Positions 6,451-56,973 of a DNA stretch of 64,000 bases are shown here, in pieces (positions within the stretch are counted from its first letter, which is position 1; each line of letters begins with the position of its first letter). The notes beneath the pieces were generated by a model, which saw nothing but the letters and a program-made list of their open reading frames with translations, had not been told where the DNA came from and made no database searches. The DNA comes from Paramacrobiotus metropolitanus (taxonomy: Eukaryota; Tardigrada; Eutardigrada; Parachela; Macrobiotidae). The stretch spans positions 1 through 64,000 of the forward strand of contig NW_026570462.1 in assembly GCF_019649055.1 (NCBI RefSeq), in the 5' to 3' direction. A program made the position numbers and the translations under genes.

Positions 6451-8451
6451 CTATCTCTTTAACTGGTTCCTCTTTCTCTGCTTCTTTGACCTCCCTTTAT
6501 TGGTTTCATCCTGTTGAACTGTTTCGTAACCTTTAGGTCGTTTAGGACCAACGAAAATGCAGTTTGCCATCAGTTCTTCGGTGACCCATTCATCATTCGG
6601 AATCGTTTCATACATGCACCATGTATCGCCACCTCGTTCTGGGTAGTCCACTCCATCTGGATCTGGTGCAAAGGTCACCTTTTTCTTTTGCATTAATCCC
6701 GGTAACCTTCTTTTCCGGGTTACCTGTAGTTCTCGCATTTCTTTTACGTCAAATTTGGGGATTTCTTCCTCGAATTTCTTCCAATATTTCTCGAATGCTT
6801 TTTCGTTTCCTTCTTTTAACGCGTTGTAGTACACTTCAAGTGATTCGTAGACAGGTGTACCGAGTCCTGCTGGGAAGATGATCGTTCTCCCCTCGCCTTT
6901 ATACATGTGGTTCACACGGAAGTCCCAGAAAAGGTCAACTCTCGCTTCTTCCCACATTTCTCCTTCCTCGGTCATTTCTTCTATCTCTCGTTCAAATCTC
7001 TTTTCCGTTGCTACCGGATCGAGAGGATCTTGGATTCCTTTCTCGACACGTTGCAACCAATGGTTTAGCCATCTGCCTCTTCCAATTATAAAACTTTCTA
7101 CACATGACAACCACGTTCGATATCTATTCCAGTGATACCGTTCGATATGTGGTTTCCACATTTCGTTTGTCCGCATGATGCTTTTCGCTTTCTTTTGGGC
7201 ATGACCTTTAAGGTCTGCTAATGCGGCATTACATCTTGGCCATTCTGAAGGGTCATCTTGAGAGGCATTTTCACAACACTCCGCGCATTCCCATTGTCGT
7301 TGCACTCTGCACGGATCCTCAAAGTAACCGTGGTGACAACTCCCGGCTCGTTCTTCTGGAGTTAATGTCCTTTGACTCGCTTCAGGTTTAACCTGTTCCT
7401 GTACTGTGGTATCTTCCTCACATTCGATTGGAGTCACGCTTTTATCCTCAGAGGATATTTCAATGACCTCTGGTTCTTTTTCTGTTCGGTGACCTTTCAA
7501 TTGTTCGAGTGCCTTGTCGCGGATTTCGCTTGTAAACATCTGTTCCTCTTCAACTATTCGTTTCAAAACTCGTAACCTTTCACTCTTTTTATCCTTCCCC
7601 ACTTTAGCCGTCTTTATTTCCAGTGCCTCTGGTACTGGGATAGGCTTTGCCCACTCCATGTCTGGCACAAGAGATTGTTTCGCTGCAACTGCCGCTTCTT
7701 TCTGTGTGGCAATTATCTCTTCAAGCGTTGGTGACCTTTCGGTAGCAGGTCGTGGTTCGAAAAAGGGTTCCTTTTGAGAGTCACGTTCTGTTACTTCCTC
7801 TTTGGCTTTATCTGGTAGCCTTTCATTTTGGGTAGCAGATCGTGGTTCGAAAAGGTTCGAAGTACGCTCTGGTTCCAAGTTCTCAGCTGTCGCTGGTGAC
7901 CTTTCGTCTTCCTTTCCCAGTGCCTCTGGTACTGGGATAACTTTTTCGACACATTCTTTTTCTGTGGCTCCTTGTTCACGGTCATCTGCGATCATACTTC
8001 TCCCGTCCGGGAGAAATATGATCGCCTCATCCATGTCTGGCGCGAGCGGTTCCTTTTTCCTTTCGTTGACTTTTTTGACATTTACGCTTTCGCTTTTCTT
8101 ATCCGGTGCCTCTGGTACCGGGATTATCCGTTGGCTAATCTCGTTCTGCTGCACTCTCGTCATTCCCGGTGCCTCTGGTACTGGGATGACCTTCTCTCTT
8201 CCCTTTTGTGTCAGCATTGTCCGGTTTAACGTGTTTTCGATCTCCTGCTGAATCATTTGCAACTGCTCAAATGGTGACAATTCTTTTCGCGTCCTCTTTT
8301 TCTTTTCGTTTCCCGGTGCCTCTGGTACTGGGATTAGCGTTTTATTAGCAGTTTGAACATTTTCCTGTTTTACAAGTTCGGTGACCTTTCCGACTTGAAC
8401 TTTGGCGACTGGTTTGGGGTCATCTTCTTTTCTTCTTCCCTTCGTTATCCA
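6451..8451 (-). CDS. E1 pol linker ORF between protease and RT
   Basis: An open frame of about 660 codons that overlaps the end of the protease frame (stop at 8420) by about 30 bases in the +1 phase, so a single base separates it from the protease reading frame. The protein is Glu/Lys-rich with a Cys/His patch in the middle (CHHGYFEDPC ... CAECCE), four copies of an IPVPEA peptide plus one just upstream in the same frame, and two FFEPR motifs. Many ERSP and KGH tripeptides come from the AAAGGTCAC word. No enzyme motif is visible. It may be a cleaved spacer or a structural protein. Confidence 0.6.
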   Translation of the reverse strand, partial: WITKGRRKEDDPKPVAKVQVGKVTELVKQENVQTANKTLIPVPEAPGNEKKKRTRKELSPFEQLQMIQQEIENTLNRTMLTQKGREKVIPVPEAPGMTRVQQNEISQRIIPVPEAPDKKSESVNVKKVNERKKEPLAPDMDEAIIFLPDGRSMIADDREQGATEKECVEKVIPVPEALGKEDERSPATAENLEPERTSNLFEPRSATQNERLPDKAKEEVTERDSQKEPFFEPRPATERSPTLEEIIATQKEAAVAAKQSLVPDMEWAKPIPVPEALEIKTAKVGKDKKSERLRVLKRIVEEEQMFTSEIRDKALEQLKGHRTEKEPEVIEISSEDKSVTPIECEEDTTVQEQVKPEASQRTLTPEERAGSCHHGYFEDPCRVQRQWECAECCENASQDDPSEWPRCNAALADLKGHAQKKAKSIMRTNEMWKPHIERYHWNRYRTWLSCVESFIIGRGRWLNHWLQRVEKGIQDPLDPVATEKRFEREIEEMTEEGEMWEEARVDLFWDFRVNHMYKGEGRTIIFPAGLGTPVYESLEVYYNALKEGNEKAFEKYWKKFEEEIPKFDVKEMRELQVTRKRRLPGLMQKKKVTFAPDPDGVDYPERGGDTWCMYETIPNDEWVTEELMANCIFVGPKRPKGYETVQQDETNKGRSKKQRKRNQLKR
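7618..8333 (-). repeat. five-copy hairpin family with loop ACCAGAGGC, encoding IPVPEA
   Basis: Copies at 7618-7640, 7915-7937, 8103-8121, 8164-8186 and 8311-8333. Each has a 9-nt loop (ACCAGAGGC in sense) between two arms of 5-7 bp. Arms are CCCAGT with ACTGGG in the 7.9-kb copy and CCGGT with ACCGG in the 8.1-kb copy, so both sides change together. The two copies near 8.17 and 8.32 kb have one A-C mismatch in sense. The same peptide and loop occur in E3 at 58.4 and 58.6 kb, with arms CCCGAT and ATCGGG. Confidence 0.75.
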
Positions 8452-10775
8452 TCAGTACGAACTTCTTCTCTAAGTCGAATCCCAATAACACCTGTACGTC
8501 GTCGCACTTCGGTCGGACGTAGAATGAATGTTCGCTAGTCTTTTTTCTTAAGGTCACTGGTGCTACACAGTAATGCGTCACCAGGAATCCTGACGTCCCG
8601 CTAATTCCATTTATTTTCACCAATCTGTCTGGTGGTAATGGGAGCATGTGGAGTCCATTCTTCTCGCAAAACGGTTTGCTGATCAGCAACGTCTCAGCGC
8701 CGGTGTCCAACATTGCGTTGACCTTTATGTCTCCCACTTTCACTTCGTGTGTGTACGCTTCAATTCTCTTGGGCAGTTTTCCATTTTGAATCTTCAAAGT
8801 GTGAATCTTACATTTCACAGGAATGAGCGATACTGGTCCCGGATCCATATCGGGAAGCACTTGTCCTTTTGCTGGAGTGCTATGACCTTTCAATATCTCG
8901 CTCAACTTATCAATCCTGTGTGGGACGTCAGTTCGAACATCGTAATATTTTCGCGGCTTTGTCTTTTCCGATTGCTTCTCTGGAGCCATTTTACCACTGG
9001 TGGCCTTTTGCACATTCCGCACTTGCTCATTTGCTTTTGTGCTGTGCACGTGACCTTTAGTCACTTCATTTATCGTCTGATGGATTAATTCCTCTTTACG
9101 GTTTTCATTTCGCTTATCTTGCATCTTCTCAATAACTTTGCTTGTTATTTGGTCAGCTTGTTTCAGTTCATCTGCTTCGCTGTCTTTCATCTCATCTGGT
9201 GACCTTTCATATGTAACCATGTCATATCCTTTTCCGGTCATCCATTCGATCACCTTCGCGGACACTTCATTGTTCGTTTTCGTTTGATCAATTTGCGAGG
9301 ACATCCCGTCTGTTCGGGCTGGTGACTTGTCATTGGCATCCTTTTGCAGTGCCTCCGATAAGTCCCGTGACCTTTCAACTGTGCCACTCTGTTGCATTTG
9401 CGCCATTTCATTTGACCTTCCTTTCTGTTCATTTTGCGCTAAGTCCTGTGACCTTTCGTTGCGCTTCATGACAAATCCGCCGTTTGTCAGCTTTTGTATA
9501 GGGACTTTTTCTCCATAATTCGGCGGTTTATCCTGTGGCGGAGCATTACGTGAATGATTCCAGTCAGCGCATGTCTTCTTATATTCCTCTGCGTTGAATG
9601 CTGGGACTGGGTTCGGTGACCCCTGCGCTGGTTTCCCGGTAACCAACTCTTCCAGTCGCTTTCTTTCACATTGCGTTCGCAACTGTTGCATGTCCCAGTA
9701 ATCCTCCTGTGACATTCCCGCTTTCTGCTTCGCTTTTGGCGTTACGGGTATCCACATCCCGTGATTGCCGTTCGGTCTGTAGGCCACTTTTTGCCACTTC
9801 TCCTTCTGTTGTAGTGTTACTGCGTCCACAAGTGAGTCGTCGGAGTTCTGTGCCATTTCCTTATTCTTTTGCTGCGCTGTTCGCAGTGTCAAGTCTGTTT
9901 CTTGACCTTTTAACACGACGCTGTCGCCGTGACCTTTTGCATTCGCACTCGCTCCTTGACCTTTAACTTGGGCTTTTCCAACAGAAGGTGACCTTTCATC
10001 TATACTAATAACGTTGATATTCTGCTTAATCCATTCTTGCCTTATTCGCTTCTCTTCTTCGTGTTCTGAACAATTCCAAAACTTTGGCTTTGGCTCCCCG
10101 TAACAATCGCAACTTGGCTCCTTCGCCTTATCGTTTTCTGCCAAAAATTTCCGGAATTTCGCGTGTTGCTCATTTTCCTCTTGCGCAGTATCGTTCTGCG
10201 GTGGTGAATTTTGGTCTTTCGATTTGCCATTTATCTGTTTCCGAAACCATTCGTGGTGCATTTCCACTTCTTCTGCGGTTTCGGTTTGCGGTTTCTTTTG
10301 GTTTAACAGCGCTTGTCGAATCTTGGCATTACGTAATGCACGACGTTCAGCTAACACTTTCTCGCTGCAATACGGTGACCTTTCATTTTGCTGCACTTTT
10401 TGCAGTGTCGCGCTACCGTCACGACAATTCCCACTCGCAGTACCATTCTGCGGTGACCTTTGGTCCCGTTGCACGTTTCCACTCGCAGTACCATTCTGCG
10501 GTGACCTTTGGTTCTGTGACGGTATCCCCATAACCGTTCCATTTCCTTTTTGTGATGACGGCATCCATATAGCCGTCTCTCTTTGCTGTGGCGGCATCCA
10601 TCTAGCCGTTTCTTGTGGTTGCGGCATCCATATAGCCGGTCCATTTTGCTTTTTCGCTAACGGCATCCATATAGCCGTTGCAGTGGTCACATTCACTGCA
10701 GTACCATTCTGCAGTGGTGACCTTTCCCTTTTATCCGGTGGTTTAGGGTCGGGACGATCAGTAGGCTCACCGGTG
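8420..10775 (-). CDS. E1 pol frame start: repeat-rich region and aspartic protease
   Basis: This frame has no ATG at its beginning. It is open from inside the gag stop-codon hairpin (about 10775) and lies in the -1 phase relative to gag, so it is expected as a Gag-Pol fusion. The N-terminal part holds five AIWMP/MGIP-like repeats, long Gln/Lys/Glu-rich sequence and dozens of RSP, KGH and KVT tripeptides. The C-terminal 150 residues are a retropepsin: MLDTGAETLLIS (catalytic Asp, near plus-strand 8705), then a flap-like segment and VLLGFD before the stop at 8420. The protease would process the polyprotein. Confidence 0.85.
9744..10677 (-). repeat. six-copy hairpin family with covarying stem, encoding (I/M)W(M/I)P
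   Basis: Plus-strand copies: 9744-9762 (arms ACGGG, CCCGT), 10519-10537 (ACGGT, ACCGT), 10557-10577 (GACGGC, GCCGTC), 10589-10607 (GCGGC, GCCGT), 10620-10636 (CGGC, GCCG) and 10657-10677 (AACGGC, GCCGTT). The loop is 9 nt, ATCCATATA or a close variant. The innermost pair is C-G, T-A or G-C in different copies, and the outermost pair is G-C or A-T, so pairing is kept while sequence changes. Confidence 0.75.
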
Positions 10776-10798
10776 CCTACTGATCTTGCCCGTTTCCC
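10735..10798 (-). promoter_or_regulatory. E1 gag-pol -1 ribosomal frameshift signal with pseudoknot
   Basis: In sense the gag codons CAG GGA AAC form the canonical slippery heptamer GGGAAAC (10792-10798) in the correct phase. A 6-nt spacer follows (10786-10791), then a perfect 11-bp stem (arms 10775-10785 and 10756-10766) with loop ACCGGTGA. Fifteen nt further, CACCGG (10735-10740) can pair with CCGGTG in the loop, giving an H-type pseudoknot. The gag stop TAG lies inside the first stem, and the -1 frame leads straight into the protease frame. E2 and E3 have the same layout with different stem sequences. Confidence 0.88.
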
Positions 10799-13700
10799 TG
10801 AACCGGCGCTCCACCTTGTTGCGCGCCCTGCACATTTCCTTGTTGTTGTCCGATATCATTTGCCGGGTTAGGATTCTGTCCGCCACCGTTATTATATTGG
10901 CCACCACCCTGCTGGTAGTTTCCTTGGCCGCCGCCATTGTTCAGGCCTCCTCTGAAGTTTCCGCGGCCATAGCCTCTGTTCCTTCCTCTGAAGCCGCCGC
11001 GGCCGAAGCCACCACGGCCGTAGCCACCGTTCTGGCCACCGCCATTTCCTTTTCCGTAATTTCCGTTTCCATTCCCTTGTTGGTTTTGGAAGTTTGCTTT
11101 GTGCTGATACCATTGGGTGATGAGGTCATATCCGTTTGCGACCGCTGGGCGCCAGCCACCTATAGCTCGGAGGCGTTGCCACTCGTTAAAGGCAAACAGA
11201 TTCGGGTTCTGTTCTGGTGGTGTATTGGCGAACTTGCACCCCTGTGTCTGATGGTTGCCGTACATACAGTACTGGCACATCTGCGCGTTGTTCGCCACCC
11301 ATCCGTCGATCATCTGAAACTTGAATTCAGTTCGTGACCCTTGTTGCTGTTGGTTTCCTCTGAAGTTTCCTTGACCTTGACCTTGTCCCTGATTCTGGAA
11401 GTTTCCTTGACCTCCGTTCCAATTTCCGTTTCCGTACCCATTTCCGCCAAAGTTTCCGTTACCCCCTCCTTGTTGTGGTAACACGACATTCGTAGGGACC
11501 ATATTCTGTGGTGCGGGTGGGGCTACATTCTGGGGAGCCACGTTCTGGGCTACTGGTCTCACTTGAGCTGCTGCCTGTATCGCCGCCACCATCGCATATG
11601 TTATCGGTTGTCCCGTCTGACTGTCGATAAAGGTCACTTCTTTGGTGACCTCTGGTGCCGGGGCCTCCCTGCGGTATTCGACCGGCTGCTGGACTGGTGC
11701 AGCTGCCATCCTCTGTTGTGGTACGTTTTCGACTTGACCTTGGCGGATGGTCACGTATTCCTGATTACGTTGACCTTTAGGCGCTTTATATTTATCTTCT
11801 CCCGCTGACCAGTGACGGAAGAAATCTTTGATTTCGGTTGGAGTCCTGCACTGTTGCGTGCGCAGTGCTTTATAAAGGTCATTGTCCACTCTGCATCCTT
11901 CGATCAGGAAACCGACTGCTTGCTTTTCAGTGATGATCCTTTTCGCCTTGTATTTCATGATCGCTTGGTAAAACTGATCAAGAGATTCTTTTCCAAGGTC
12001 AAATTTTCTTGCCATGGCTTCTCGTAATCCAAGGACTTCTTCATCACGATCTCCATATTCATCTTTGAATTTGGCCAGCCATTCCGTTATTGTATATTCT
12101 GTTTCCTCCTGGAGTGCGATCTCTCTCTCTCCTTCGAACCAGGTTTTCGCTGGTCCTTTCACCGCGCTGGCTATCTCAATTAATATCTGGTCGTCGGTGA
12201 GGTGGTACGTTCGCTGGGTATCTCTAACCAGTTGTGTCCAGCCATTCACTGCGTCGCGACTTCCATCAAAGGTCACTAGGTTTGTCTTGCGCCCCATCGA
12301 TTGGAGTGCGTTCACTAATCTCTGTGTCGCATCATTGTCTTCTGCCGTGCTGGAGTCACTATCGTCATCGTCCTTATTTCGCTTCGCTTTTCCGTAGCGG
12401 GACTTCCTTGGGCGTTCTTGCCGGCTAGACGGTCTATCCTGTTTCCTTTCATCAATAAAGATTTTCGTTTCAATATGTGGATGAAATTGGGTGGGATCAC
12501 CACGATTCGAATGGGAATAAGTTTCCGATGGTGGCTCCTTGTCATCCATGACCATTTCCCCGTCCTTTTCGTTTTTGACACTTCCTCTGCCAGTACCGGT
12601 TCGTAGCGGCATATCAAAGTGGAAGCTTTTGCCCGTGCCCGTTTCGTGCGCCTTGCTGTAACTGGGCGGGGGCGACCCCACTGTTGAAGTCCTAACTCCA
12701 TATTGCAGAAGCTGTTCATCTTTGTGCTTATTAGACATAACAAGCGCCTTATTCTCATCCTCAAGGCGACGGACTTTCAACTGGACTTCCTCTTTCTCCG
12801 TTTTCAAGTTCTGATTCTCCTCCTTGACCTTTAACATATGTTGGTGGAGTTGGAAAGTCTTCTCCTGAATGACCTTTTCAGTGTCATTCTCCACCTTTTT
12901 AATGTGTTCCGCCAACTGGGTCACATCCCTTTCCAGCTTCGTGTATTCCTCGACTGCTGCTTTCAGTTGATTTTTCGTCTGGGTGACCTCATCTTCTTTT
13001 GTCATCACCGTTTGGGTCATATCGATCAGCTCCGTGTTGAGCTTGATAATCTCCTGCGTCTTCTGGTGGACTGATTGTTGCCACTCCTTATCTTTCAGTT
13101 CATGTACCGTGACCTTTTCATCCAGGAGGTGTGCCTCGTGTTCCCACCTCATGCCTTGCTCGGCGATTGTCTTAGCAGTCTTTTTCAACTCGGTATTCTC
13201 TTCGGTGACCTTTTGAACATCTGCTTTCAACGACTTGTTCTCTTCCATCACCTGCTTAATTTCGTTCTTCAACCGCACACCTTCAGTGGCTGTAAGCTCC
13301 CTCAGGTCCTTAGCCACTTTGACAGCGTCGTCGGCTCTCCTCTGATGATCCTGTGATTCTTTTTGAAGGGTTCCGATGTTCTCGTCCCGTAACTTCAATT
13401 CGTTTCTCAGCTTAAACACCTCATTGGTGTTTGTCAACAATCGTTGAGTAGCGTCGACGAGTTTGGCCGCGTATTCATCTCGCTTGGCTTCCGCTTCGGT
13501 GACCTTAAGTTTCAGTGAGTCACATTCATCCTTCAATTCGGCTAAGTGCCGTGACCTTTCCGCTGATTCTTCTGACATGCTCTCATTAAGGTCACTAACT
13601 GCAAGATGACCTTCCATTTCTCTGTCATCTGCCATTTTCAAATATTCATCAGCCAATTCCTTCTGTCTTTCATATTTCACCTTCCAACCGTCTGCGGCAC

Positions 13701-14613
13701 TTTGAAGGTCACCCTGTTGCTGCTCCAGATCGAACAGGCGTGCTTCAAGTGTCGTCAGTCTTTCCCGATATTCCTGTTTTCGCTTATCCGCTTGACGTTC
13801 ATTGACTTCAAGTTCATTTTCCAATTCACTGACACGTCTCCTCAAAGTTGACGTGGGACTGTTCGGTGACGGTGGTCGTACACTGATGACCTTTCCAAAT
13901 TTTGTCCGTTCAATGAGGTGCTCCGGTATGTCCTTGAATGGTGTCATACCTTCAGCACGGTCAGCTTCCTTCATGGCAGTTTGAAAAGACATATTCATCG
14001 TTGCTTCATCATCCGTGAAGTAGGACTCGTTCGATTCGTCTGAGACCATTGGAGTTGCCCAAAGGTCATCACCTGCGGTCTTATCGTCCAATGAAAGGTC
14101 ATCCAGTCCCAGTTCAGCCAAATTCTCTTCGGTGACCTTTATGTTTCCATCTTCCACTTGGGCCAGGTTTACATTTTTATCCTGCTCGTTTGTTCCGCTG
14201 GTGGTAGCATCCAGCTGTGATGCTGCCACTGCTTCCGCTCTTCTTTCAGTGGATTTTTCCTCCCCAGTGACCTTTGTCTGGTTCATCGGTTCACTTCCCG
14301 CCGTAGACGCGGGAGTGTGCTTCTGGTCGTCGCTTGAACTTTCCTGATTGGCGACCGCCTCGAGCGCCTTCTGATAAGTGCTATCAGAGCCTCGTGAATC
14401 CTTCTTCTCGAATGCCTTGGGCGCTCGAGTGTTCCGCTCATGTCCAACTGGACGTGAGTACGGGTACAGATCCTTTTTGTACGGATTTGGTGCGCTTTGC
14501 TGTGAGCTGCGGGAGCTTTTGCTTCCCTGACTGCTGTTGGATGTCGGTTCCTCTTGGTCTTTGTCCATGTTGATCGGATAACTTGGACGCTCCTGCCAAT
14601 TGTTCTCACACAC
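10777..14613 (-). CDS. gag: E1 Gag polyprotein (coiled coil, capsid-like domain, zinc knuckle)
   Basis: Intact 1278-codon frame. Residues about 1-240 are Ser/Thr/Glu-rich and disordered; about 250-640 form a long coiled coil with heptads and repeated KVTEEN; about 780-930 match the retrotransposon Gag fold (VKGPAKTWFEGE, then YQAIMKYKAKR). A single CX2CX4HX4C knuckle lies near residue 1110 (MCQYCMYGNH), followed by a Gly/Arg/Asn/Gln-rich tail. It should form particles and bind RNA. It is about three times the usual Gag size because the coiled coil, a separate ORF in E2 and E3, is fused here. Several tripeptides arise from the AAAGGTCAC word. The start codon choice within the first residues is open. 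Confidence 0.9.
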   Translation of the reverse strand: MCENNWQERPSYPINMDKDQEEPTSNSSQGSKSSRSSQQSAPNPYKKDLYPYSRPVGHERNTRAPKAFEKKDSRGSDSTYQKALEAVANQESSSDDQKHTPASTAGSEPMNQTKVTGEEKSTERRAEAVAASQLDATTSGTNEQDKNVNLAQVEDGNIKVTEENLAELGLDDLSLDDKTAGDDLWATPMVSDESNESYFTDDEATMNMSFQTAMKEADRAEGMTPFKDIPEHLIERTKFGKVISVRPPSPNSPTSTLRRRVSELENELEVNERQADKRKQEYRERLTTLEARLFDLEQQQGDLQSAADGWKVKYERQKELADEYLKMADDREMEGHLAVSDLNESMSEESAERSRHLAELKDECDSLKLKVTEAEAKRDEYAAKLVDATQRLLTNTNEVFKLRNELKLRDENIGTLQKESQDHQRRADDAVKVAKDLRELTATEGVRLKNEIKQVMEENKSLKADVQKVTEENTELKKTAKTIAEQGMRWEHEAHLLDEKVTVHELKDKEWQQSVHQKTQEIIKLNTELIDMTQTVMTKEDEVTQTKNQLKAAVEEYTKLERDVTQLAEHIKKVENDTEKVIQEKTFQLHQHMLKVKEENQNLKTEKEEVQLKVRRLEDENKALVMSNKHKDEQLLQYGVRTSTVGSPPPSYSKAHETGTGKSFHFDMPLRTGTGRGSVKNEKDGEMVMDDKEPPSETYSHSNRGDPTQFHPHIETKIFIDERKQDRPSSRQERPRKSRYGKAKRNKDDDDSDSSTAEDNDATQRLVNALQSMGRKTNLVTFDGSRDAVNGWTQLVRDTQRTYHLTDDQILIEIASAVKGPAKTWFEGEREIALQEETEYTITEWLAKFKDEYGDRDEEVLGLREAMARKFDLGKESLDQFYQAIMKYKAKRIITEKQAVGFLIEGCRVDNDLYKALRTQQCRTPTEIKDFFRHWSAGEDKYKAPKGQRNQEYVTIRQGQVENVPQQRMAAAPVQQPVEYRREAPAPEVTKEVTFIDSQTGQPITYAMVAAIQAAAQVRPVAQNVAPQNVAPPAPQNMVPTNVVLPQQGGGNGNFGGNGYGNGNWNGGQGNFQNQGQGQGQGNFRGNQQQQGSRTEFKFQMIDGWVANNAQMCQYCMYGNHQTQGCKFANTPPEQNPNLFAFNEWQRLRAIGGWRPAVANGYDLITQWYQHKANFQNQQGNGNGNYGKGNGGGQNGGYGRGGFGRGGFRGRNRGYGRGNFRGGLNNGGGQGNYQQGGGQYNNGGGQNPNPANDIGQQQGNVQGAQQGGAPVQGNGQDQ

Positions 14614-14643
14614 ACGTTATTGTATGGTTTATTCAAGTATCCT

Positions 14644-27481: not shown

Positions 27482-30400
27482 ATGGCCTCCATCCCTCCTG
27501 CATCGCGGACGGTTACTCCACAGGACGATCCTGCCTCCAGCGTTCTGGGTTGCCTGAAAGAGACATTAAGCAGCGGAGAATTTAGTGATATGCAGTTCGC
27601 CCTTGGACGTCAGTTTGGCCCAGTGAAGATCTTCCAAGCGCACAAGTAATGTTCCTATAGCATTCAATCGTTGATGGGATGCTTGTGGAACCGAGCTGCT
27701 ACGAGTTCCATTCTTATCTTGCTTTATTCTAGATACATTCTGAGTATGCGCAGCCCCGTTTTCCGTGCCATGTTCTTTGGCAGTTTGCCCGAAAGCTGCG
27801 ACGGTCCCATCGAGATCGCGGATTTTATTCCCGACGCGTTCGCCAATTTGCTGAGGTGCACTCGTGGTACCCTGATTTTTTGAATTGCGCCCGAAAAACA
27901 TTAAGAGGCTCCGCGTGTGTTGAGTATCAATGGAGTGCTTGATTTGCAGTTACATGTACACGGATAAAGCGGAGAATCTGAGCGCAGACAACGTGTTCCA
28001 CACGATGAACTCTGCTGACAAGTACGACTTTGCGCCATTGATACAGGTGTGCCTGGAGATGATCTACAGCCAGCTGAACGTCGACAACTGTCTATCCGCC
28101 TTGGAACAAGTGCGACCTGTGAAGCTCGTAACAGCTAGCCAGATTGCTGACTGCTGAAGTGTACTGACTACGAGGAGAAAATTGCAGGCGCTTCACTGGC
28201 ATGCAGACGGTATCGTGGAGAAGTGCTTGAATTTGCTGGATGAGGAGAGTCTGGCGATCTTGCAGTCGCCGACATTTACTGCCATCAGTAAGGACCTGCT
28301 AGAGATAATTCTGGAGCGCGAAACCTTGTCCGCTGAGGAGTATGACATCTATTTGGCTGTTGAAGAGTAAGTAACTGTGTGATTACATCCATATCAGTGA
28401 CATTTTCACTGCGGGAGTTTGCCGTAAAACTGTGTTGTTGCAGATGGGACCATGAAGCTTGTCAGCGGGAGGGTATGGATACATCCGCCGATAATCGGCG
28501 CCAGATGCTCGGCTCCGCATTGTACATGCTGCGGTTCCCTCTGTTGACCAGCGGACAACTGGCTGACGGCCCCGCACAGGTTGGCTCCTGTTTTCTTGAC
28601 GCATTTTTATTTTACGAGTGTCAGAGTGTTGTGCGTATAGCACAGGGATATTGGCACGGACGCCTCACCATCATTGGCCCGGCTCACCATCTGCCAGCTT
28701 TCCAAACACGACTGATCGTGTTTGCCATTCGAGTGCCAGCATCGGAATCGACAACATCGATTCCTTCTTAGCCTTCTGATTTCATGCCCTTTTCCCCATT
28801 AGATTTTGTTTTTGAGGATGTTTTAGCATTTATTTCTATGAAATAAAGCGATCATTTCGAGGAGATGTTGTTTCCGTTGTCGTTTCTCTGTACAGCGTAG
28901 ACGCTTCTCCGAGATGGTGGAGATGCCTTAAGATCCCTGTCATTCCCTCTAGTTTTGCACTCGATAACAGCGTTCTCTGGTAAACGCTGTAGCACGGGAG
29001 TTTCCTCCTTCTCAGTGGAGACCTCGGTCCACCAGCGATAGCCCACATCAACCAGCAGCAGAAGAATTTCATCAACTGAAGCAAGGAGCGTCGCTGGTTC
29101 GGAAGGCACGCGGCCGCCAGCAAGGAGAAGAACCGCGGACAACGTATCGAAGTGGTAGGCATTAAGCCTATAATTTTGAATCTAATAGGATAAATTCCTT
29201 AAAGGACGGATTATTTCTGCCAAGAAAATAGTGTCTTATAGAAACTAGCGTTTTACAAAAACGGGGAAGGAAGAGAACGATCGTTCTTGACTAAACTGGA
29301 TATTGTATAGTTAAAAGTTTGACCAAAATGAAGAAAGTTTTGGCTATCGTAATAGATGGCAGAGTTGTGCGGATTATTGTAACAGATATCGTTGTGGTGT
29401 ATTTGGATGACATCCTTCTGTAAGAGAACGATCGTTCTATTTTGAGAATATCGTTTGATTTGATTATTAACAGAGCGCACAAATTACTGTTCGCAAAGGT
29501 TATTTGTAACGGAGCGATGGCTCAGTGGAGCGGAATTCCCCATTCTGTCTGAAAGTCATGTCAAAGAACTAGCTGATTCCTATCAGCGATAGCCGTTCTT
29601 TCGTGTAAGTATAGCTGCAGAGCAGCTCAATAGAATTGTGTGGGGCAGGCCATTCATAGCCGCCCAGGCCAATCTTCTGAACTGTACAAAATCGAAAACT
29701 GCAAAGCAGTCCTGTAGCATAACAGAAAAATAAGTTTAGATTTTGACGATAACTACTATCATTTGATATTTCTCGAGTTCGACAATACCGTAGCGGATGG
29801 CATAATGCCGATACACCGCTCCCCGACCAGAAAACAACCAGCCATTGATAGGCTGAAGCAAGGCGTGGAGGACGTGTTAAAGTCGGCCAGTAAAGTGTTA
29901 AATCGAATAACCGAAGACCCAGCAAAGGCTGGTACGAGCGGGGCTCCACAACCGGACAAAGTAACCCGTAGTAAGGCAAATCAGCTGAAAGAGGCAGGTG
30001 TGGAAATTACCCACAAAGTCCTCCAGGATAAAACCCGTAAGCCGCGTAAGGCAACCGTAATGGATCAAGGAGATAATCTCCTTGATACACCAGTAATGGA
30101 GCCGCCTGATCAGTTGTTTTTCAGGCCGCTAACGCCAGATAAAGTTAGACAGGTCAATCCCGATAATCGGGAAGAGGAACGCGCGCCTGCGCCGGAACGA
30201 TCTGAATGTGCTACAGAGTCAACGGCCACGACAGGGTCGTTTTCTCAAGTGAGCGAAAGCGAGCTGAATAAGTCCGCAACGACGGACGAAGAGGAGGAAC
30301 CGGTAACAGTTGTGCCTACCACATTGCGTAAAACGCAATCATACACTGCTAATCTAAATGAATTGCTGAATTCTGCGGCTAAGCCGGCAACAGGTTCCAC

Positions 30401-33400
30401 TATTGTGGAATTAAAACAGGCGACCGAAACTATTTCGGCAAACCAAGTGTTGATAAAAGATGTGCAGAGGAAGCTAGAAGTAGCTGAGGACGAAGTCCAG
30501 CACCACAAAAATCAGTACCAGCACGCCCATAGCTCCTTTAAAAATATGGAGAAAATTGTGTTGGGCTTGCGGGCCGTAATAGGCGAAAAGGATGCGGCGA
30601 TTGCCGAGTTAAAAGCGAAAGTAGACGAGGGTCGTGTCAGAAATTCCGAAATGAATCAGCAATTAGCTGAGAAGGACACCATGCTTGATCAAGTGTGGCA
30701 AGAAAACCAGCGATTAAAGACCGTTAATTTCAATCATGTAACGGATTTGAAGAATGTGCAGTCGATGCTGCATGAAAGTCAAACCGAACATAAGTCCCTT
30801 GTTGGGAGATTCAATTCACTAGCAAAAGACTACCGAGTGTTGTACGACCGGCAGATGAACCCGGAGGCCGTAGAATACGGCGAGCGACCGCTCAGCAGGG
30901 CATATGCCGGTAATACCAAGCAGAATCATCCGTGTACAGCAGGCAATGAACACGAGTGCTGACAGCAATCGGCAATGAACGAGAGTGGCTTTCGGGAAAT
31001 GCCGAGTGCTGATAAGCAGCAATATCTCCGCAGTATTTTGCGGGAAGAAATTCAACGAGCAGGCATTGGACAAAGCAGGACAGTAAGTCCTGTAAGAAAA
31101 TCGGACTTGGTTGATGTAATGCGCCAACCAGTACCGCGCCCGAGCTACAATGGTAGCAAAGAAGATATCGACAGCTTTATAATAAAGTTTGATCAAGCAG
31201 CCACCGCAAATCGGTGGACTACAGATGAGAGAAAAATAACGGAGTTGGCGTATTGCCTAAAGGATGAAGCTATCGTATGGTATAATGGACTGAACACGTC
31301 GAACGCTGCTCCCACCACGTATCGTGAATGGAAACAGCAGTTAATCGCCAGATTTGGCGATTCAAAACGATCGGTTAACGCGTTAGCAGAGCTGACAAAT
31401 CGTAACTACCGACCTGGCCAGGAAACTCTAGAAAGTTACTACCAGGCCATGATGACTTTGCGCGATCGCGCGGGGTTTAAAGGCACACCTGAACAATTCG
31501 TGTCATTTTTAATGCGCGGATTAAAACCGCATGAGAAACTCCATGATAAAATGGAAGTCATGCGACCAGATACTCCCGAGAGATTTCTCGAAATACTGCG
31601 ATATTTGTCATCAAATAATCCGGAAAAATACGTTATTCCGATCGGCAATGTCCGACGCAAGCAGGAGAGGGATACCGATGCAGTCACTGTGCGAACAGCA
31701 CAAGTCCAATCGAAGTCATACGCGGCAGCGGCAGCCAGCCCGCCGCGACCAAATAGCAAGAACGGTGGAAAACCGAGTTACGGTAATCGTAACAGTAATA
31801 ATAACAACATTCGCAGCAATATCAGCAAAGCTGACAGTAATGATAGTCGAATTAGCCAAGACGATAACCGTGCGCCGTCTCGTAAGGAGCAATGGGCAAA
31901 TAACATTAATAGAATACAAGAAGTGACCGATCGGTCACCGGCCCTGCAGAAAACTCTGCGTGGCAACCGAGTGGTGAAGTACTGCCAGCACTGTGATTTG
32001 TGCGGACATTACTTCCGTGACTGTCAGTTTCGCGATAAACCGCGATGTGAAAACCCAACTTACTTGGCCTACCATGATCCAGAAACTGGGAATCGGCGAT
32101 ATGCCGCCGATTTCTATCAGCGCCGTAGTGGTAGTCAGTCAGGGAGCGAACCTAATTCGCCGGCAAGGCCGAGGAGTAATTCCCGGCAAAGTATCGGCCC
32201 GGTGGAAGATCGGATACGTCCGACTCCAGGATCACCGTTACCGGATAATAATCCGTTTTCGGGTTTGGCTGATCAGGAAAACGAGGAAGGGCGGTAAATT
32301 CCGGCTTTACCGACCCGATTCCGCCCAAACCGCCGGACAAAATCGAAAGAGTTACAATCAACGGATTGCGCATCGTTGAACCCGATGAATCATCGGATAG
32401 CAGCAATGCTACTATTAACTTTTGTACTGCTGTAATCAATTACTGAACCTAGACGCGCACATCCACTAATGTTGGATGCAACTATAAACGGGCGCGAAGC
32501 GCCAGTAATGATAGACACAGGAGCAGAAACATCGTTAATCTCTAGCGAATTTGCTACGGAAATATGCGCTGCGAAAATTCCACTAATTAAGTCTCTGCAT
32601 ATCCGCGGTATTGGCGGAGTGCGCGGCTTTTTAGTAACGCATTACTGCCGGATAATTATTAAAATACGCGACTTTGAAGCCATCCATTCGGTTTATATTA
32701 AACCGACGACCGATGAAATTAAAGTCTTGCTAGGTCAGGACTTCTTGCAGCATACTTTCTATGCAGTACGGAACAATAAATTGCGTTATCTGGAGTATCA
32801 ACCAGATGGAAAATCAGGCCCGCTTATAATAAGTGAATCGGTGTCGCCTGTTATTCAGACGATAAACACCGTGGAGGAGAAAGTCTTCCCGATACCCGTG
32901 GCAACGGGAAAAGTACAGGCTAACGGGCCAAATGAATTATCAGAAAAAGACGGTAATGTACAAAAAGGGAGCAAAGTCTTCCCGATACCCGTGGCAAAAG
33001 CCACAATCAAATCCGTATTAAAAAAACCAGCGAAAATCCGCTTGGCAACAAAATCAACGTTCAGACGCTTATGGGGTGAATACAGAATTTTGGTAAAAGA
33101 AATTCAGGAACTAGTAGAAGCGAAGGAGAGCGGTACAAACGTTATGTACCTTTTTATGGATGAGGACGTACCAATCCCGGGGATCGACTCTGTAAAAGCA
33201 GAAGAAATTGTCCGCAACCTAGCGAAGCAGTATAAAGCGGAATATTCCGCTCTGGAAGAAAAACAACGTCAGTTAAATGAAATATTTAGGCATTTAAAAA
33301 TACCACTACCGTACGTACTACGGACACCTTTGCGCGTATTAGCGCAATTAGAACGGCGTAAGCTACCAGTATTGCCTTACCAGTTGAAGGAGTGTAAACC

Positions 33401-36400
33401 GCTCGATAATTATGTTAATGAAACGGTTGTAAAAACCATAGCTAACCATAATCGGTCAGTCAGTTTTGCGCCGATGGCGCGGGTAGTTGAATTTTTAAAA
33501 GACGATCCGTCTATCGTAGTGAGGAATACTCTCGATACTGCCGCCACTAACAAAACTAATAATAATTTAATTAATCAAGCTAGCATCGAAGTAGTACCGC
33601 ATCCTAATAATTTAATTATCGTAAATGCAGAATTGGTAGGGCCCACTGATTCTGCCGAGATCACTAATGAATCTCCGACTTGGGAATTTTCCCAGTCTCC
33701 GAACATTAACCCTTCTTACCGCGGTACACGCGCTAAGCCTATCAAAGTCTTCGCCGGCGATAAACTATTAATTAATCCGGGTACTAATCGGGCGACAGTG
33801 AATGTCCAATTCGATGCAAATGAGCAGTTCGATACCGATAAGTTTTTATTCCTTCCCAGTCCGCACCTGTATATAGAGCGGCGGATAAGGCCGATGGAGG
33901 GAGTGGTTAAACCACAAAATAAAAAGTTTGATATGGTATTCGTTAACTTTCAACATCAGCGGCAGTCAATTAAGAAAGGCCAATTTATTGGCTATTTAGA
34001 ACCGTATGAGGATATTCCCGATATAGATATTCAAGTTAATGCCACAATGTTGGCAGAAATGACACCTGAAGAGCAGGAGACTGTGATAAAAGCGGTGGAT
34101 GAATTAAAATTAATCCGGAATTAACCGCACAAGAAATTAGAGAAATTAAGGAAATATTTCTCGAATATCCCGGTTTATTCGCGACGAAAACCCGTCCGTT
34201 TGGCGATGTCCAAATAGTCAAGCATCAAATCGACACCGGTGACATTGCACCGATAAAATGTAAACCGCACAGAACCTCGTGGCGAGGCCGCGAGATTATT
34301 CAAGAACATGTAAATGAAATGCTGGAGAAAGGGATAATTCGAAAATCGAATTCTCCCTGGTGTTTTCTCGTAGTATTAGCTAGTAAGAAAAATCCCGATG
34401 GAACCATCGGTACGCGATTTTGCGTTAATTATATTAAGTTAAATGACGCCACAAAAAAGAATAATTATCCTCTTCCTAACCCGGATGAATTATTGCAGGC
34501 AGTAGCTGACAATAAGTATTATTGTGGCTTTGACTGCAATGCAGGATTTTGGCAAGTGCAAATGCACGAAGACTCCATCGAAAAAACTGCGTTTATTACG
34601 CAGGATGGACTTTACGAATTTTTAAGGATGCCGTTTGGTGTCTGTAATGGCCCTGCAACGTTTCAGGAAGCCATGAATAGGACGTTATCGGACGTCCACT
34701 GCGAAAATATTTTCGCTTATTTGGATGATATCATTGCCGCCGCTAAAGACTTCGCAGATCTCAAACGTAAAATACGTTTAATGTGTGAGTGCCTTTTAAA
34801 GGTTGGTTTTACATTGAAACCGAGCAAGTGCCATATAGGCGAAACGGAGTTACATTTCCTTGGACATATTGTTTCCAAGGACGGGATAAAAACGGATCCC
34901 GATAAAATAGCGGCCATTGAGAAATACCCGAAGCCAGAGACAGAGAAAGATCTGAGGTCATTCCTCGGACTCTGTAATTACTATCGTAAATTCGTTAAGG
35001 ATTTTGCCGGTAGAACGCGCCGTTTATACGGCCTACTAAAAGGAGAAATCGATGTAAAATCGAATTGGACCGTAGATCACGATAGTGAATTTGCTGATTT
35101 GAAATCAGCATTAATTAACGCACCAGTACTGGCGAAATTTGATCCAAGTAAACCAACCGTAATCGAATGCGATGCATCGACGGTAGGAATCGGCGCTATA
35201 TTGCACCAAGACGGTCACCCAATCATTTATGCGAGCAAATTGCTCACAGACGCTGAAAAGAAATATCCAATTACAGAATTGGAATGTATGGCAGTAGTTT
35301 TCGCGTGTCGGAAATTTCGACACTTCATTGAGTACTCACACTTTTCAGTACAGACTGATCATCAAGCTTTAACTAATTTATTGAGATCGGTTTCCGTAAA
35401 GAGGGACTGAATGGCCGTTTAACGCGCTGGGCACTCCAGCTAAGCAGTCATAAAATGACTATATTATACCGACCGGGAAAACAGTGTGATAACGCTGACG
35501 CGTTAAGTAGGCACCCGGTAGGAGAAGCCACTGAATGCCCAGACGATGACTGGGATGAGTTTAAAGATTCTAAATTCAGTACTCCGACTATTCGTGTAGT
35601 AACGATAAGGGATGGAGCAGAACATGAGGAAGAGGAGGACAACTTTAAGTTTTATCGCACCGAACAGGAGAAAGATCCTAATATTGAACGCATAATTCAC
35701 GCGTTAGAGGGACGCGTAGAAAGCGTCCATTTGCTTAAACGTCCCGGTTATTCCGGTTATGAATTGTGGAATGGTGTACTGTATAAAATATCGGAAAAAG
35801 ATGGTCGTATTAACCGTCGATTTGTTGTGCCAAAGCACATGCGTGTGGATATTATGCATGCAATGCATGATGCACTGGCTAGCGGTCATCTAGGCCGTGC
35901 TAAAACTTATCAGGCGATCGCCCTACGTTATTTCTGGGAGAATATGGTCTCTCAAATTATCAAGTACGTAGATCACTGTTTTGCATGCCAGCACCGCAAG
36001 ACACTGCGCAAAGCGCCACCCGGCAAACTACAGCAGATCGCCATCGGCGAGCCGTGGTTTAGAATGCAAGTGGATTTGAAAGGGCCATTGCCCAAAACAA
36101 CACGGGGAAATACCTACATCGCTGTGGCGGTAGATGAACTTACGAAATTCGTAATTGCAAAACCAATACCCGACGCAAAGGCAGAAACTGTCGCTAATTT
36201 CTTGATTTATGACGTGTTCCTGCCGTATGGAACACCACAAATTCTGAACACCGATAGAGGAACACATTTCCATAATTACTTATTGGAAGCAATAAATAAA
36301 AGGCTAAGAATACAGCACCATTTTGGTGCTGCGTATCACCCGATCGGGCGTGGACTTGTCGAAAGACAAATGCAAACAATTGCTGATTCACTCGCGATGT

Positions 36401-39400
36401 ACGCCAGTGACGGCCGGGAACGTAATTGGGACAAAGTCCTACCATTTGTAATTGCCGGAAAAAACCGTGTAGCGAATAAAACGACAAATTTGTCGCCGTA
36501 TTTTATGCTATACGGTAGAGAGCAGGTTATTCCTGCAGATACGGAAACAAAAACGAACCTCCCGGTAGATCACGCGACAATTCGCGACTATATGGAGGAA
36601 TTACGCTATAATTTGAGTCGCGCTCAGGATATCGCGGAATTGCATATTCGTAATGAGTTTGATAAAAACGCCGAGCGATTCGACAAAGGTCGGTCGGAAG
36701 ACACCTATAATATAGGTGACATGGTTATGCTGAAAATTGAGAAGAAAAAAGGCGAAACGGAGTCATTCCGTCGGAAATATGAGCTCGAACCGTGGGAAAT
36801 CATTGGGTTTCCCTACACTAATGCTGTCGAAATTAAACGAATAAATTTCGATAAAACAGAGGAGATACGAGTCGTAAATTGTGAACGGCTAAAGCCGTAC
36901 AAAACCACCGAAGAAGATCGCAAGAGAGAAACCTTATTGGTTCAGGACTTGTTGGAGAATCATAAATTAAGGGAAACCCCTGCGAACGATGTGGTCCGTA
37001 CCTCTGCAGATAATTCTGCGAGTAATTCCCCTGTAGCTGATACAGAAGAGTGGGAAACAGTAGATAACGACGACAACGATAATAAGCGCAATACCGCTAA
37101 TAAACCGGTACCAAGAAAGCGCTTTATGCTAAAGTTACGCAAAAGCGCTAATGGATATGTTAAAATTCATCGTATAACAGTAGGATCGAAGCACACAAAG
37201 TGAAAAACCGTCAAACAGTATTAACTGTTTAAATAAAAATAACGAGCGTTATTTCAACACCGTAATACCGTATCAAAAAAATTTCACAATTAAATTGTGT
37301 AATTTTTTCCATTGCAGATATTTTCGCAATGGACCGCGATCAGCGACCGAACCGACCGGTTGGCAGAGGTAATCCTCGATTCTTCGCCCCACCCGTAGCG
37401 GGAAATCAAGCTTATCGCCCGACGCAGCGATTTGCTGCCCCGAATGTCCAGAACGTTCAAAATGCCGGTAATTTGCCCAACGTGGCACCAGAAGTAATTC
37501 CAGTGACTATGTCACGTAGCACGCAAACTGATCCAGTAATAGTGGCATCATATGCCGAATACGAGCTACTGTTGCGCAGTAATCGGGAACGCGACTTGGC
37601 ATCTTACAGACACTCGTTAGCAGCGACTGCTGCCCAACCAGAGGAAATAGCCGCAGTTGATCAACAGCATATTACTCCGCCAGCAGAAAGAGTGGCAAAG
37701 GCCATGATAGCGCGTGCAAAGGCACAGAGTGACGCGGCAGAAGCCTCAAAGGAAGTTGAAGAGGTGCCGTACGAATCAATTGTAAAAAAATCTATTAAAT
37801 CGCCTGCAAAAGCAGGAGTAGCAACAGCGTTAAAGGCAAAGCCTAAACGGAGTAAATCACCGAAACCACCGGCAGACGCCAACGAGCGATTAGCAAAGCT
37901 GATCGCCGACCATGAGCAGCAAGAAGCCAGAGATAGGCAGCGTTGGGGACAATCCTTTATAATGGAAGGTCCGTTTACCCCGACGAAAACAGACGCCCCT
38001 AATGGGAAGGAATTACGAGTAGTTACGATACCACAGCATGTGTATAATCGACCGGAGCGTAGCGAAGGTCCTCTATATTCAAGACCAATGCAATGGTTGA
38101 TTTCTGTCCGTTACGAAAATCCGTTACGGAAGTTCGTTACGGAAGTTTGTTACGGAAGTGTGTTACGGAAGTGCGTTACGGAAGTTGGATATGGAAGTGA
38201 GACTACGGGATCATGCAGCTGACCGGTGTGATGCAGTCGCAGCCAGTGCTCTACGACATCGTGGTTCGCTGCCGTTGCCCATGGCGTCTCGGCTACAGAA
38301 TACACAGCGGCACTGCAACCCTTGAATTGTTTCCGTTACAAAAGACTTTTACGGGATAACGCTATGACCTCAGGATATTTAACCTAATGCCACTTGTGGT
38401 GCCTGTTGCTGTGGGTCTGTACGAAATCTAGAAGCTCACCGCTTTGTCGTCATTTTTGACTGCCGTGACCCAGCGCAGCTTCACTACATAAATACTCGTA
38501 ATATTCTTTGCTTCTCGACAATTCACATCGGTCTGATCAACTGTAATAAATAACTCCCGACAAAATTTCCTTCTGAAAATTTTACTCCTGTTCCCTACGC
38601 TACCGTCGCTGAAATAGTAGGTCATAATGGTCATGATGGCGAAACCCAGGACTGGCATGGGTTTTCGTTTAGCTTATGGTATTAATAGTAACCTTGGGCC
38701 GCGTACTTGTACGCTCATCCTCGTCCGTGCGTCCCCTACCTCGTGCATCTTGTGAAACCTACTTACTTAAAAAAAACTACGTAAGAAAATTATTTTCGTC
38801 GGCCATGGTTAAGAGGGCGTGGCTAAACTCGATTCCATTGCACAATACATGCAACAGTATGTATCGGGAACACCGTAATAGTGGCAACAGATACGTGTTG
38901 TCAGTAGTCCGATCCTTCTAAAAATTCTTCTGAAAATTACTGCTATTAATAATCGAGAACAACTTAACAAAAGTTGTGAAGCTAGTGATTAGTGATAATG
39001 CGTTTTGTATTTGCGCCAACACTCATGACGTATGATACTACGTATATCGCGGGGCTTATTCTTATTTTCCAATACAAACTAGCACAGTACTACATAATTC
39101 TTCTCGATAATTTGCACAGTAATTTTTAGAAGGATCTGACTTTGATCACACGTATTGGTCACAAACCTCTGACATTGTACGGTACACTATTTCGGTATTC
39201 CCAGTAAATAGTGCTGTATGTATTAATGCACTGGAATTAAATGTTGCCACGCCCACTTAACCGTCGCCGATGAAAATACCTTTTATGAGTATACCCAAAA
39301 ATTATTCTGTCTTCCTGCAAAAAACGAAATTTTTCGGGGCCGGTGACCGGGGCTTGGTAAGTCACGCTCCGGTCTGCCAATGCACGCTAACGTGCATTTT

Positions 39401-55000: not shown

Positions 55001-55129
55001 GCGGACAACAGAATCCGGAACGCCCTCCCGCCGATTACCCACAAGACTCGCAGAACGTGCCTCGGTTCCGACCAACAGAAGGTCGGGCACCACCGAGAAG
55101 GCCGTTCAGAAGTCAGCATGGAAGGGTGA
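52088..55129 (+). CDS. E3 ORF1: repeat-rich coiled-coil pre-Gag protein
   Basis: About 1013 codons from ATG 52088. Residues about 150-360 are built of PTTEVG, PTSKVG and similar units from the GAGGTCGG word. The central part is disordered. Residues about 520-820 form a long coiled coil (LRKRCQDLITQIVLADQ onwards) with Tyr/Asp-rich heptads near the end (DKYIDDLNRYIDEMTTYTDD). The C-terminus overlaps the Gag frame by 214 bp in a -1 phase. It corresponds to the N-terminal half of E1 Gag. Likely structural. Confidence 0.75.
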   Translation: MSNPKENEYARKFNTDYSRRLTSNAPYALRHSGQDKSQPSSTDSTKSAEAREKRNERILLADSNPTSDDSFEDAHDKTFLEPRAGLAAPSHPTGGESEKLQAETTLSHAEAEHPHGVPTSTDPTEGLQLSSQKAQESVTTTKVTDAGHTSPNQTDDVKRSTSPNSGRATSPTSKVGEKQPITEIGQVQPTTEVGRASPTSKDGQRKPTSEVGYPQPEVGPHLTTQVGIEVGRLQQSPTKEVGQVQPTTEVGRISPTKTDGSPPTKEINQQKPPTEVGPHPTTQVGTEVGPLSPTKVGQQRKTMEVGPRPTTQVGTEVEQLPPTSRIGQQQVGKVQPTSLERKPADNRSDMDIQWPKLPAKTGETEAPPRSGPHPAGSPTNIPMPNEKAISPLSRPSPTEGRSTQATEKSDKSPTSRPVDLLKKKSPLMFELGDSGSGTPPPMDDVFDTTQVSRPSSRDGFFRTPVAPHLGNHRYQASTLEYTARKWIASTPPEKIEDIDRLRKRCQDLITQIVLADQIVNSTENQMSRSEDTHKLERKRWEKEPAEANNGIAAQQRRIEHLESHLKRSDNPCRYDFEEIERLQSTLATSVESVFELKRRLATVEKDLADTQTALVESELAAGTFHQQLKQANEEAEVYRNEVDRYIVELKQADDEVDRQKYRIEQLEREMETLLVRAGRQLMAHYGQQPASPDRSRATTDLEQANAQLADQVYGLNDALKEEQRLRAQLEHSLAEAQKVYEAQQNRIAHLEVRENDLYNYGLDADKYIDDLNRYIDEMTTYTDDLDTEVRCLQEETKHLEQSRTEPPSYRTSMATDFHFEPSQTVREILWDIKPKEEKKEQNFFVGVVTTNPLIGTPPQQQPLPHRPEPERNTSTAAPHVPTSNVPTTTTATSGTYTSTTYATHTSMHAPAPTTSHPNGPAPNQWGAGRRLGERTSSHPNMDDFGRLTISDSTIAVNELGHIITTYLQEDEADNRIRNALPPITHKTRRTCLGSDQQKVGHHREGRSEVSMEG

Positions 55130-56919: not shown

Positions 56920-56973
56920 GGTCGATGAGCCCCGGTGACTCATTCGACCTGCGACATCCCACCGAACCACCGG
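56895..56973 (+). promoter_or_regulatory. E3 gag-pol -1 frameshift signal with two slippery sites and a pseudoknot
   Basis: GGGAAAC occurs in the correct gag phase at 56895-56901 and again at 56907-56913. After the second, a 5-nt spacer is followed by an 11-bp stem (AGGTCGATGAG at 56919-56929 against CTCA-t-TCGACCT at 56939-56950, one bulged T) with loop CCCCGGTGA. CACCGG at 56968-56973, 17 nt further, can pair with CCGGTG of the loop. The -1 frame enters pol exactly at the ORF starting ATG 56925. Confidence 0.88.

Follow-up and report, generated by a model that had tools for sequence, protein, structure and literature searches.

Results

A putative frameshift pseudoknot at the gag stop of E1

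Positions 10735-10798 of the window, by which we mean the whole stretch of 64,000 nucleotides analysed here, very probably serve as the recoding signal between gag and pol in Ty3/gypsy LTR retrotransposons of Paramacrobiotus metropolitanus, in the form of an H-type -1 frameshift pseudoknot. Judged from sequence, this segment of the gag-pol junction is best read as a -1 frameshift pseudoknot; the module is of a known kind and new in these elements, and frameshifting by it is predicted. On the minus strand, the gag stop of the element E1 carries a slippery heptamer, a spacer and two stems (S1 and S2) in the H-type layout, in the order GGGAAAC, GGGCAA, GATCAGTAGGC, A, CCGGTG, A, GCCTACTGATC, a 15-nt loop and CACCGG. 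The features of E1 were as follows.

10792..10798, minus strand: slippery heptamer G_GGA_AAC, phase checked; GGGAAAC in 37/40 copies
10786-10791, minus strand: 6-nt spacer preceding the S1 5' arm
10775..10785, minus strand: S1 5' arm GATCAGTAGGC, forming a perfect 11 bp with the 3' arm
10777..10779, minus strand: gag stop TAG in the reading frame, within S1
10768..10773, minus strand: S2 5' arm CCGGTG in the S1 loop, pairing with CACCGG
10756..10766, minus strand: S1 3' arm GCCTACTGATC, pairing with GATCAGTAGGC
10741-10755, minus strand: 15-nt loop ahead of the S2 3' arm
10735..10740, minus strand: S2 3' arm CACCGG, over Pro-Pro-Asp codons of the -1 frame
10777..14616, minus strand: gag ORF with a glycine-rich C-terminus and a cysteine-histidine motif
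8420..10855, minus strand: -1-frame ORF with an aspartic protease (PF13650, E=3e-7)

The first-pass annotation had placed an in-phase GGGAAAC, a spacer of 6 nt, an 11-bp stem without mismatches and a second stem of 6 bp at the gag stop; these coordinates were verified, and the protease ORF lies in the -1 frame. Since the gag-frame codons over the site read GGA AAC GGG CAA GAT CAG TAG, the heptamer has the phase G_GGA_AAC, and gag terminates four codons on, within stem 1. The stem-1 hairpin alone had a folding energy of -18.4 kcal/mol compared with a shuffle mean of -5.8 (z -4.9), and none of 200 shuffles equalled it. When both strands of the 64-kb window were scanned strictly, with an unbroken S1 of at least 9 bp, an S2 of at least 5 bp and heptamers of the X_XXY_YYZ type only, the E1 site was the sole match.

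Over the aligned parts, E1 gag was 24% identical to E3 gag and 26% identical to E2 gag, and neither the E1 nor the E3 gag ORF had a Pfam match. For both E1 and E3, the evidence for a Ty3/gypsy assignment consists of gag similarity and the protease only. The window begins at contig base 1, and E1 may be cut there. All 13 database matches to E1 gag in the protein search came from Paramacrobiotus metropolitanus. Gag relatives among the database proteins (P0126, P0131, P0132, P0133) are annotated as bicaudal D-like, myosin-like, paramyosin-like, golgin-like and so on, names that are probably due to coiled coils. Short repeated motifs were observed in E1 (IPVPEAPG; 6451-8451, minus strand) and E3 (SIPIPEAS; 56925-61355, plus strand), and in both elements long tracts around the protease were without a Pfam match.

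The module in E2 and E3

Two further elements of the window, E2 and E3, carry the corresponding features.

32276..32282, plus strand: E2 slippery heptamer G_GAA_AAC, non-canonical; GGAAAAC in 22/24 copies
32289..32298, plus strand: E2 S1 5' arm, with the gag stop TAA (32295-32297) inside it
32300..32305, plus strand: E2 S2 5' arm TCCGGC
32306..32316, plus strand: E2 S1 3' arm, with a single bulged base
32332..32337, plus strand: E2 S2 3' arm GCCGGA
28619..28914, plus strand: E2 5' LTR, identical to 43488-43783
43488..43783, plus strand: E2 3' LTR
30963..32297, plus strand: E2 gag, Retrotrans_gag (PF03732, E=3e-7)
32436..37203, plus strand: E2 pol with protease, RT-RNase H and integrase (PF13975, PF00078, PF17919, PF17921, PF00665)
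56907..56913, plus strand: E3 slippery heptamer G_GGA_AAC; GGGAAAC in 31/40 copies
56920..56929, plus strand: E3 S1 5' arm, with the gag stop TAA (56917-56919) immediately ahead
56932..56937, plus strand: E3 S2 5' arm CCGGTG
56939..56949, plus strand: E3 S1 3' arm, with a single bulged base
56968..56973, plus strand: E3 S2 3' arm CACCGG
55057..56919, plus strand: E3 gag ORF
56925..61355, plus strand: E3 -1-frame ORF with an aspartic protease (PF13975, E=1.5e-8)

The earlier claim that E2 and E3 have the geometry of E1 was borne out, with one bulged S1 base in each, and so was the second stem, CCGGTG/CACCGG in E1 and E3 and TCCGGC/GCCGGA in E2. The E2 heptamer breaks the X_XXY_YYZ pattern in its first codon; one further E2 copy has GGGAAAC. 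As isolated hairpins, E2 (z -1.95; equalled by 9 of 200 shuffles) and E3 (z -2.17; 6 of 200) were weaker than E1. The protease regions of E3 and E1 were 42% identical over 173 matched columns.

E2 can be assigned to the Ty3/gypsy elements because it has LTRs, gag, an aspartic protease, RT-RNase H and integrase, together with RT matches: its RT was 42-43% identical to the best database matches, including spider proteins named after transposon 297. The features of Ty3/gypsy elements (Metaviridae), namely LTRs, gag and the PR-RT-RNase H-IN order, were found together in E2 only. No relatives of E2 gag were found by protein search in the protein database. The two LTRs (296 nt, 14.9 kb apart) are identical, which is a sign of a recent insertion. 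In this copy (28619-43783), the gag and pol frames are broken at several points despite the identical LTRs, and pol is split over three ORFs in different frames; its -1 frame closes 54 codons past the heptamer, whereas 15 of 23 E2-type copies stay open in that frame. Three extra same-strand ORFs of 318, 174 and 855 aa, measured stop to stop, are located after the integrase ORF and ahead of the 3' LTR (37266-42914); they had no Pfam match in the forms scanned and are an unusual cargo for a Ty3/gypsy element.

In E3, a second same-phase GGGAAAC is located at 56895-56901, 12 nt upstream of the slip site, and by the usual spacing it is too distant from the pseudoknot. Six E3 copies (L045, L050, L051, L053, L056 and L061) were missing the first two bases of the heptamer and retained the stem positions, suggesting that an E3 line of copies without a canonical slip site has multiplied.

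Reading frames and further families in the same genome

Similarity searches for the sites gave at least 40 E1, 24 E2 and at least 41 E3 places, from which 40, 24 and 40 copies (n=104) were examined; the E1 and E3 copies were the best 40 of 190 and the best 40 of 177 candidates, respectively. The heptamer was recognised by motif in 93 of the 104 copies and not in 11 (3 E1, 1 E2 and 7 E3). Among the 93 heptamer-bearing copies, frame 0 (gag) met a stop within 4 codons in 91, and the +1 frame closed within 34 codons in 92. The -1 frame was open to the end of the stretch taken in 62 copies, 30 of them for at least 400 codons, and was closed in 31, among which is the E2 copy of the window. A scored heptamer-pseudoknot site was present in 36/40 E1, 21/24 E2 and 30/40 E3 copies, leaving 4, 3 and 10 copies without one. 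Across these genomic copies, which the first-pass annotation had named as the material for checking its proposal, the pairing was retained in nearly all; paired changes were few within a family and more frequent between families.

A pattern search listed 172 forward and 172 reverse matches, compared with none for the reversed-pattern control, and additional stem-1 sequences were seen among them. Since the pattern fixed most of the S2 letters, its S2 counts are no evidence for S2. A protein search of the genome with E2 gag found 71 places with identities down to 28%. Thirty-nine loci were taken downstream of 39 of these gag places; 29 had a scored site, with GGAAAAC in 13, TTTAAAC in 11 and GGGAAAC in 5, and 10 of the 39 had none. 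In gag phase, the X_XXY_YYZ pattern is represented by G_GGA_AAC in E1 and E3 and by U_UUA_AAC in 11/39 gag places. Loci related to L105 had a scored site in 7 of 8 cases. The five groups together (E1, E2, E3, gag places and L105-related loci) had one in 123/151 loci. Altogether 133 sites were scored in 161 loci, two of them being antisense GGGTTTC readings inside E1 copies and so not independent, and none was scored on the reversed sequences of all 161. The proposal that the signal is a defined family of recoding element was supported in that more families of the same genome carry the module. No Rfam match reached the gathering score in the window.

Structure compared with chance and coding

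Family representatives were compared with both dinucleotide shuffles and synonymous recodings of the -1 frame. A scorer widened to take in families with internal loops found the H-type layout, with a stem 1 of 9-12 bp and a stem 2 of 4-7 bp, in 22 of 23 representatives, and no stem 1 in the remaining one (L148). In each of the 22, which are not independent since several come from one family, an equal score was reached by 0-1 of 1000 shuffles and by 0-7 of 1000 recodings, the latter control being somewhat permissive because the scorer leaves the gag-frame codons free in the gag/pol overlap. The first loop was 0-4 nt, the last loop 11-19 nt and the spacer 3-6 nt; among the 22 parsed representatives, 19 had a spacer of 5-6 nt, and in the other three, L031, L106 and L117, it was 3 nt and the outermost pairs may fail to form.

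S2 was less distinctive when taken alone: depending on the family, 6-141 of 1000 synonymous recodings equalled it at its position. The -1-frame peptide is conserved, KR being followed by G and then by PPD, which is replaced by MPD and APD in two families; part of the CCGG signal is therefore coding. The conservation of S2 pairing had earlier been taken as an RNA signal; part of it belongs to protein coding, since the 3' arm lies over the conserved Pro-Pro-Asp codons. Two observations nevertheless argue for an action of RNA pairing besides coding: the codon over alignment column 73 turns from Pro to Met in L118 and from Pro to Ala in L158 with the pairing base unchanged, and the core of the L147/L150 family has CTGGC/GCCAG in place of CCGGC/GCCGG.

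Sequence constraint and covariation

Nucleotide diversity was calculated in 30-nt windows over 29 E1, 23 E2 and 32 E3 copies. Across the 60 nt starting from the heptamer it was 0.019-0.020 in E1, 0.053-0.078 in E2 and 0.043-0.045 in E3, compared with 0.085-0.163, 0.157-0.254 and 0.070-0.228, respectively, over the 150 nt upstream. It recovered to 0.22 by 60 nt in E2 and to 0.31 by 90 nt in E3; the E1 trough was less sharp because E1 diversity remained at 0.026-0.081 to about 240 nt. The trough was also seen at third codon positions, which in E2 are off phase past about 170 nt because the reference copy is frame-broken. The copies had been gathered with a query of about 200 nt surrounding the site, a choice that favours conservation in that stretch; within that query, the E2 and E3 flanks were less conserved than the module. 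The change per stem base was 0.0044 in E1, 0.0169 in E2 and 0.0039 in E3, and the change per unpaired base between the stems was 0.047, 0.080 and 0.057, respectively. The stems thus vary 5-15 times less than the intervening unpaired bases.

For covariation, 24 sequences were aligned without structure information and 17 proposed pairs were evaluated. Pairing was found in 88.0% of the proposed-pair cells, compared with 25-45% when the partner was slid by 1-3 columns. Cells changed on both sides numbered 51, against a shuffled mean of 17.7; both-side changes occurred in 9 of the 17 pairs, a number matched by 12 of 500 shuffles. Additional pair types were not raised above the shuffles in this alignment. 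The six S2 pairs were 98.5% paired in the 24 sequences, and a seven-pair version of S2 was 87.2% paired compared with 13-48% when slid. Columns 37-76 of S2 had CG in 22 sequences and UA in 2, and columns 40-73 had CG in 12, UA in 11 and no pair in 1; the both-side changes in S2 look like about two events.

In a tree-aware, R-scape-like simulation, the kind of covariation test that had been proposed for these copies, no pair reached E<0.05 among all 4095 column pairs; the S1 pair 28-49 ranked first (E 0.067) and the S2 pair 40-73 fourth (E 0.57). When E was rescaled by arithmetic to the 17 proposed pairs, these two passed, at about 0.0003 and 0.002, and the other proposed pairs stayed at 0.05 or above; this scaling is lenient because part of the same sequence set had served to propose the structure. 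The test itself loses power because bulges shift parts of stem 1 between registers. Covariation is modest here, being strong when set against shuffles and slid partners and weak in the tree-aware simulation. The argument from pairing kept while sequence changes is right, although weaker pair by pair than it had appeared, and the synonymous-recoding and conservation tests weigh more for the pseudoknot than covariation does. The first stems, described before as unrelated between elements, are not wholly so: the alignment and intermediate families connect them.

Discussion

The sequences themselves show an in-phase heptamer, the gag stop, an open -1 frame with protease, the two stems and the selective conservation of these stems. 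From these data, we infer the formation of the pseudoknot in cells, the occurrence of frameshifting and its rate. A ribosome translating gag would meet the heptamer G_GGA_AAC, G_GAA_AAC or U_UUA_AAC, and the H-type pseudoknot about 6 nt downstream would pause it while the heptamer occupies the P and A sites. The two tRNAs would then re-pair one base back, so that a fraction of the ribosomes would go on to translate protease and the remainder of pol; all others would terminate within four codons. Slippage on G_GAA_AAC would, as we infer, require a P-site G-U pair. Relaxed first codons like that of G_GAA_AAC are described in the available text of PMC5009743, with G_GA in insect flaviviruses and others and G_UU in equine arteritis virus.

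Among Ty3/gypsy relatives, PEG10 (Edr), a mammalian gene derived from Ty3/gypsy, comes closest in kind; according to the excerpted texts it has GGGAAAC, a 5-nt spacer and a pseudoknot and makes an aspartic protease by -1 frameshifting (PMC2800197, PMC4598141). However, PEG10 is a host gene, and the likeness noted here is one in kind of signal. The pseudoknots of IBV and torovirus, which belong to other viruses and genes, are similar in their UUUAAAC, spacer of 5-6 nt, S1 of 11 bp, S2 of 6-7 bp and first loop of 1-2 nt: in the tabulated part of PMC3835772, spacer/S1/S2/first loop/last loop are 6/11/7/1/32 in IBV, whose loop is much longer, and 5/11/6/2/10 in Berne torovirus. The retroviral GGGAAAC pseudoknots of CAEV, SRV-1 and HERV-K10 share the heptamer and the place in the genome, CAEV (4/10/7/1/15) being the nearest in the same table (PMC3835772), whereas SRV-1 and HERV-K10 have an S1 of 6 bp; all three belong to Retroviridae, not Metaviridae. 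That source gives a typical spacer of 6-9 nt to the structure, yet its tabulated spacers are 4-6 nt, and the tardigrade geometry falls within or near its tabulated coronavirus, torovirus, arterivirus and lentivirus range (PMC3835772). Yeast Ty3, of the same superfamily, also frameshifts at the gag-pol junction, but by +1. Other animal LTR elements resemble the present ones: of 51 surveyed, 28 have pol in -1, and many of them carry classical heptamers (PMC5009743, available text). The view that the signal is exceptional for Ty3/gypsy elements thus holds only in part, given these elements and PEG10 with its GGGAAAC and pseudoknot (PMC2800197, excerpt). No description of this module in tardigrades was found among the titles and abstracts listed in the literature search, and the available text of a tardigrade transposon paper (PMC11071193) names Gypsy once and frameshift never.

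It could be speculated that stem 1 alone stimulates frameshifting and that S2 is a by-product of the conserved -1-frame peptide, with a Gly codon in the loop and Pro-Pro-Asp downstream. This is unlikely: the S2 arms do lie over conserved codons, an S2 by itself arises fairly often when the peptide is held fixed, and both-side changes were found in just two S2 pairs, but the six S2 pairs are almost always complementary in the alignment and the seven-pair version loses its pairing when slid, base 73 still pairs though its codon turns Met or Ala, and one family (L147/L150) has CTGGC/GCCAG for CCGGC/GCCGG. That the hairpin serves another RNA role, such as packaging or dimerisation through a self-complementary CCGG loop, with the heptamer incidental, appears most improbable. 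The palindrome CCGG does occur in the loop of 22 of the 24 aligned sequences; the L147/L150 loop, CCTGGC, is not self-complementary and yet pairs with the downstream arm, and the heptamer, phase, spacing and frame change agree with frameshifting. Kissing-loop dimerisation was set aside since the L147/L150 loop is not self-complementary.

Joining of gag and pol by splicing, transcriptional slippage or re-initiation is very unlikely, since the shift site, its distance to the pseudoknot and the closed frames agree with -1 frameshifting, and runs of identical bases in the heptamers do not exceed 4. Stop-codon readthrough was set aside because the frame open after the site is -1, not 0. A chance resemblance, or an artefact of dead and recently copied elements, is scarcely credible. 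Such an origin might be suspected from the 31/93 copies closed in -1 and the 11/104 without a recognised heptamer; however, the module is retained in diverged families, shuffles equalled it in 0-1 of 1000 cases and reversed sequences in none, and in E2 and E3 the conservation is localised to the module.

Beyond the -1 frameshift pseudoknot itself, it seems fairly likely that tardigrade Ty3/gypsy elements have retained a single ancestral recoding module even as their gag sequences drifted apart to about 25% identity, with heptamers exchanged (G_GGA_AAC, G_GAA_AAC, U_UUA_AAC), stem 1 rewritten pair by pair, stem 2 threaded through conserved -1-frame codons and G_GAA_AAC kept in several lineages. 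If this is true, these elements hold a natural record of which pseudoknot parts can change.

The mechanism is already well known; what makes the case interesting is how broadly the module varies in nature. More than 100 copies of this frameshift module occur in one genome; they span several diverged families and include three heptamers and numerous stem sequences. These natural variants can be used for asking which features set the frameshift rate. The findings suggest that Ty3/gypsy elements beyond the mammalian derived genes use retrovirus-like pseudoknots.
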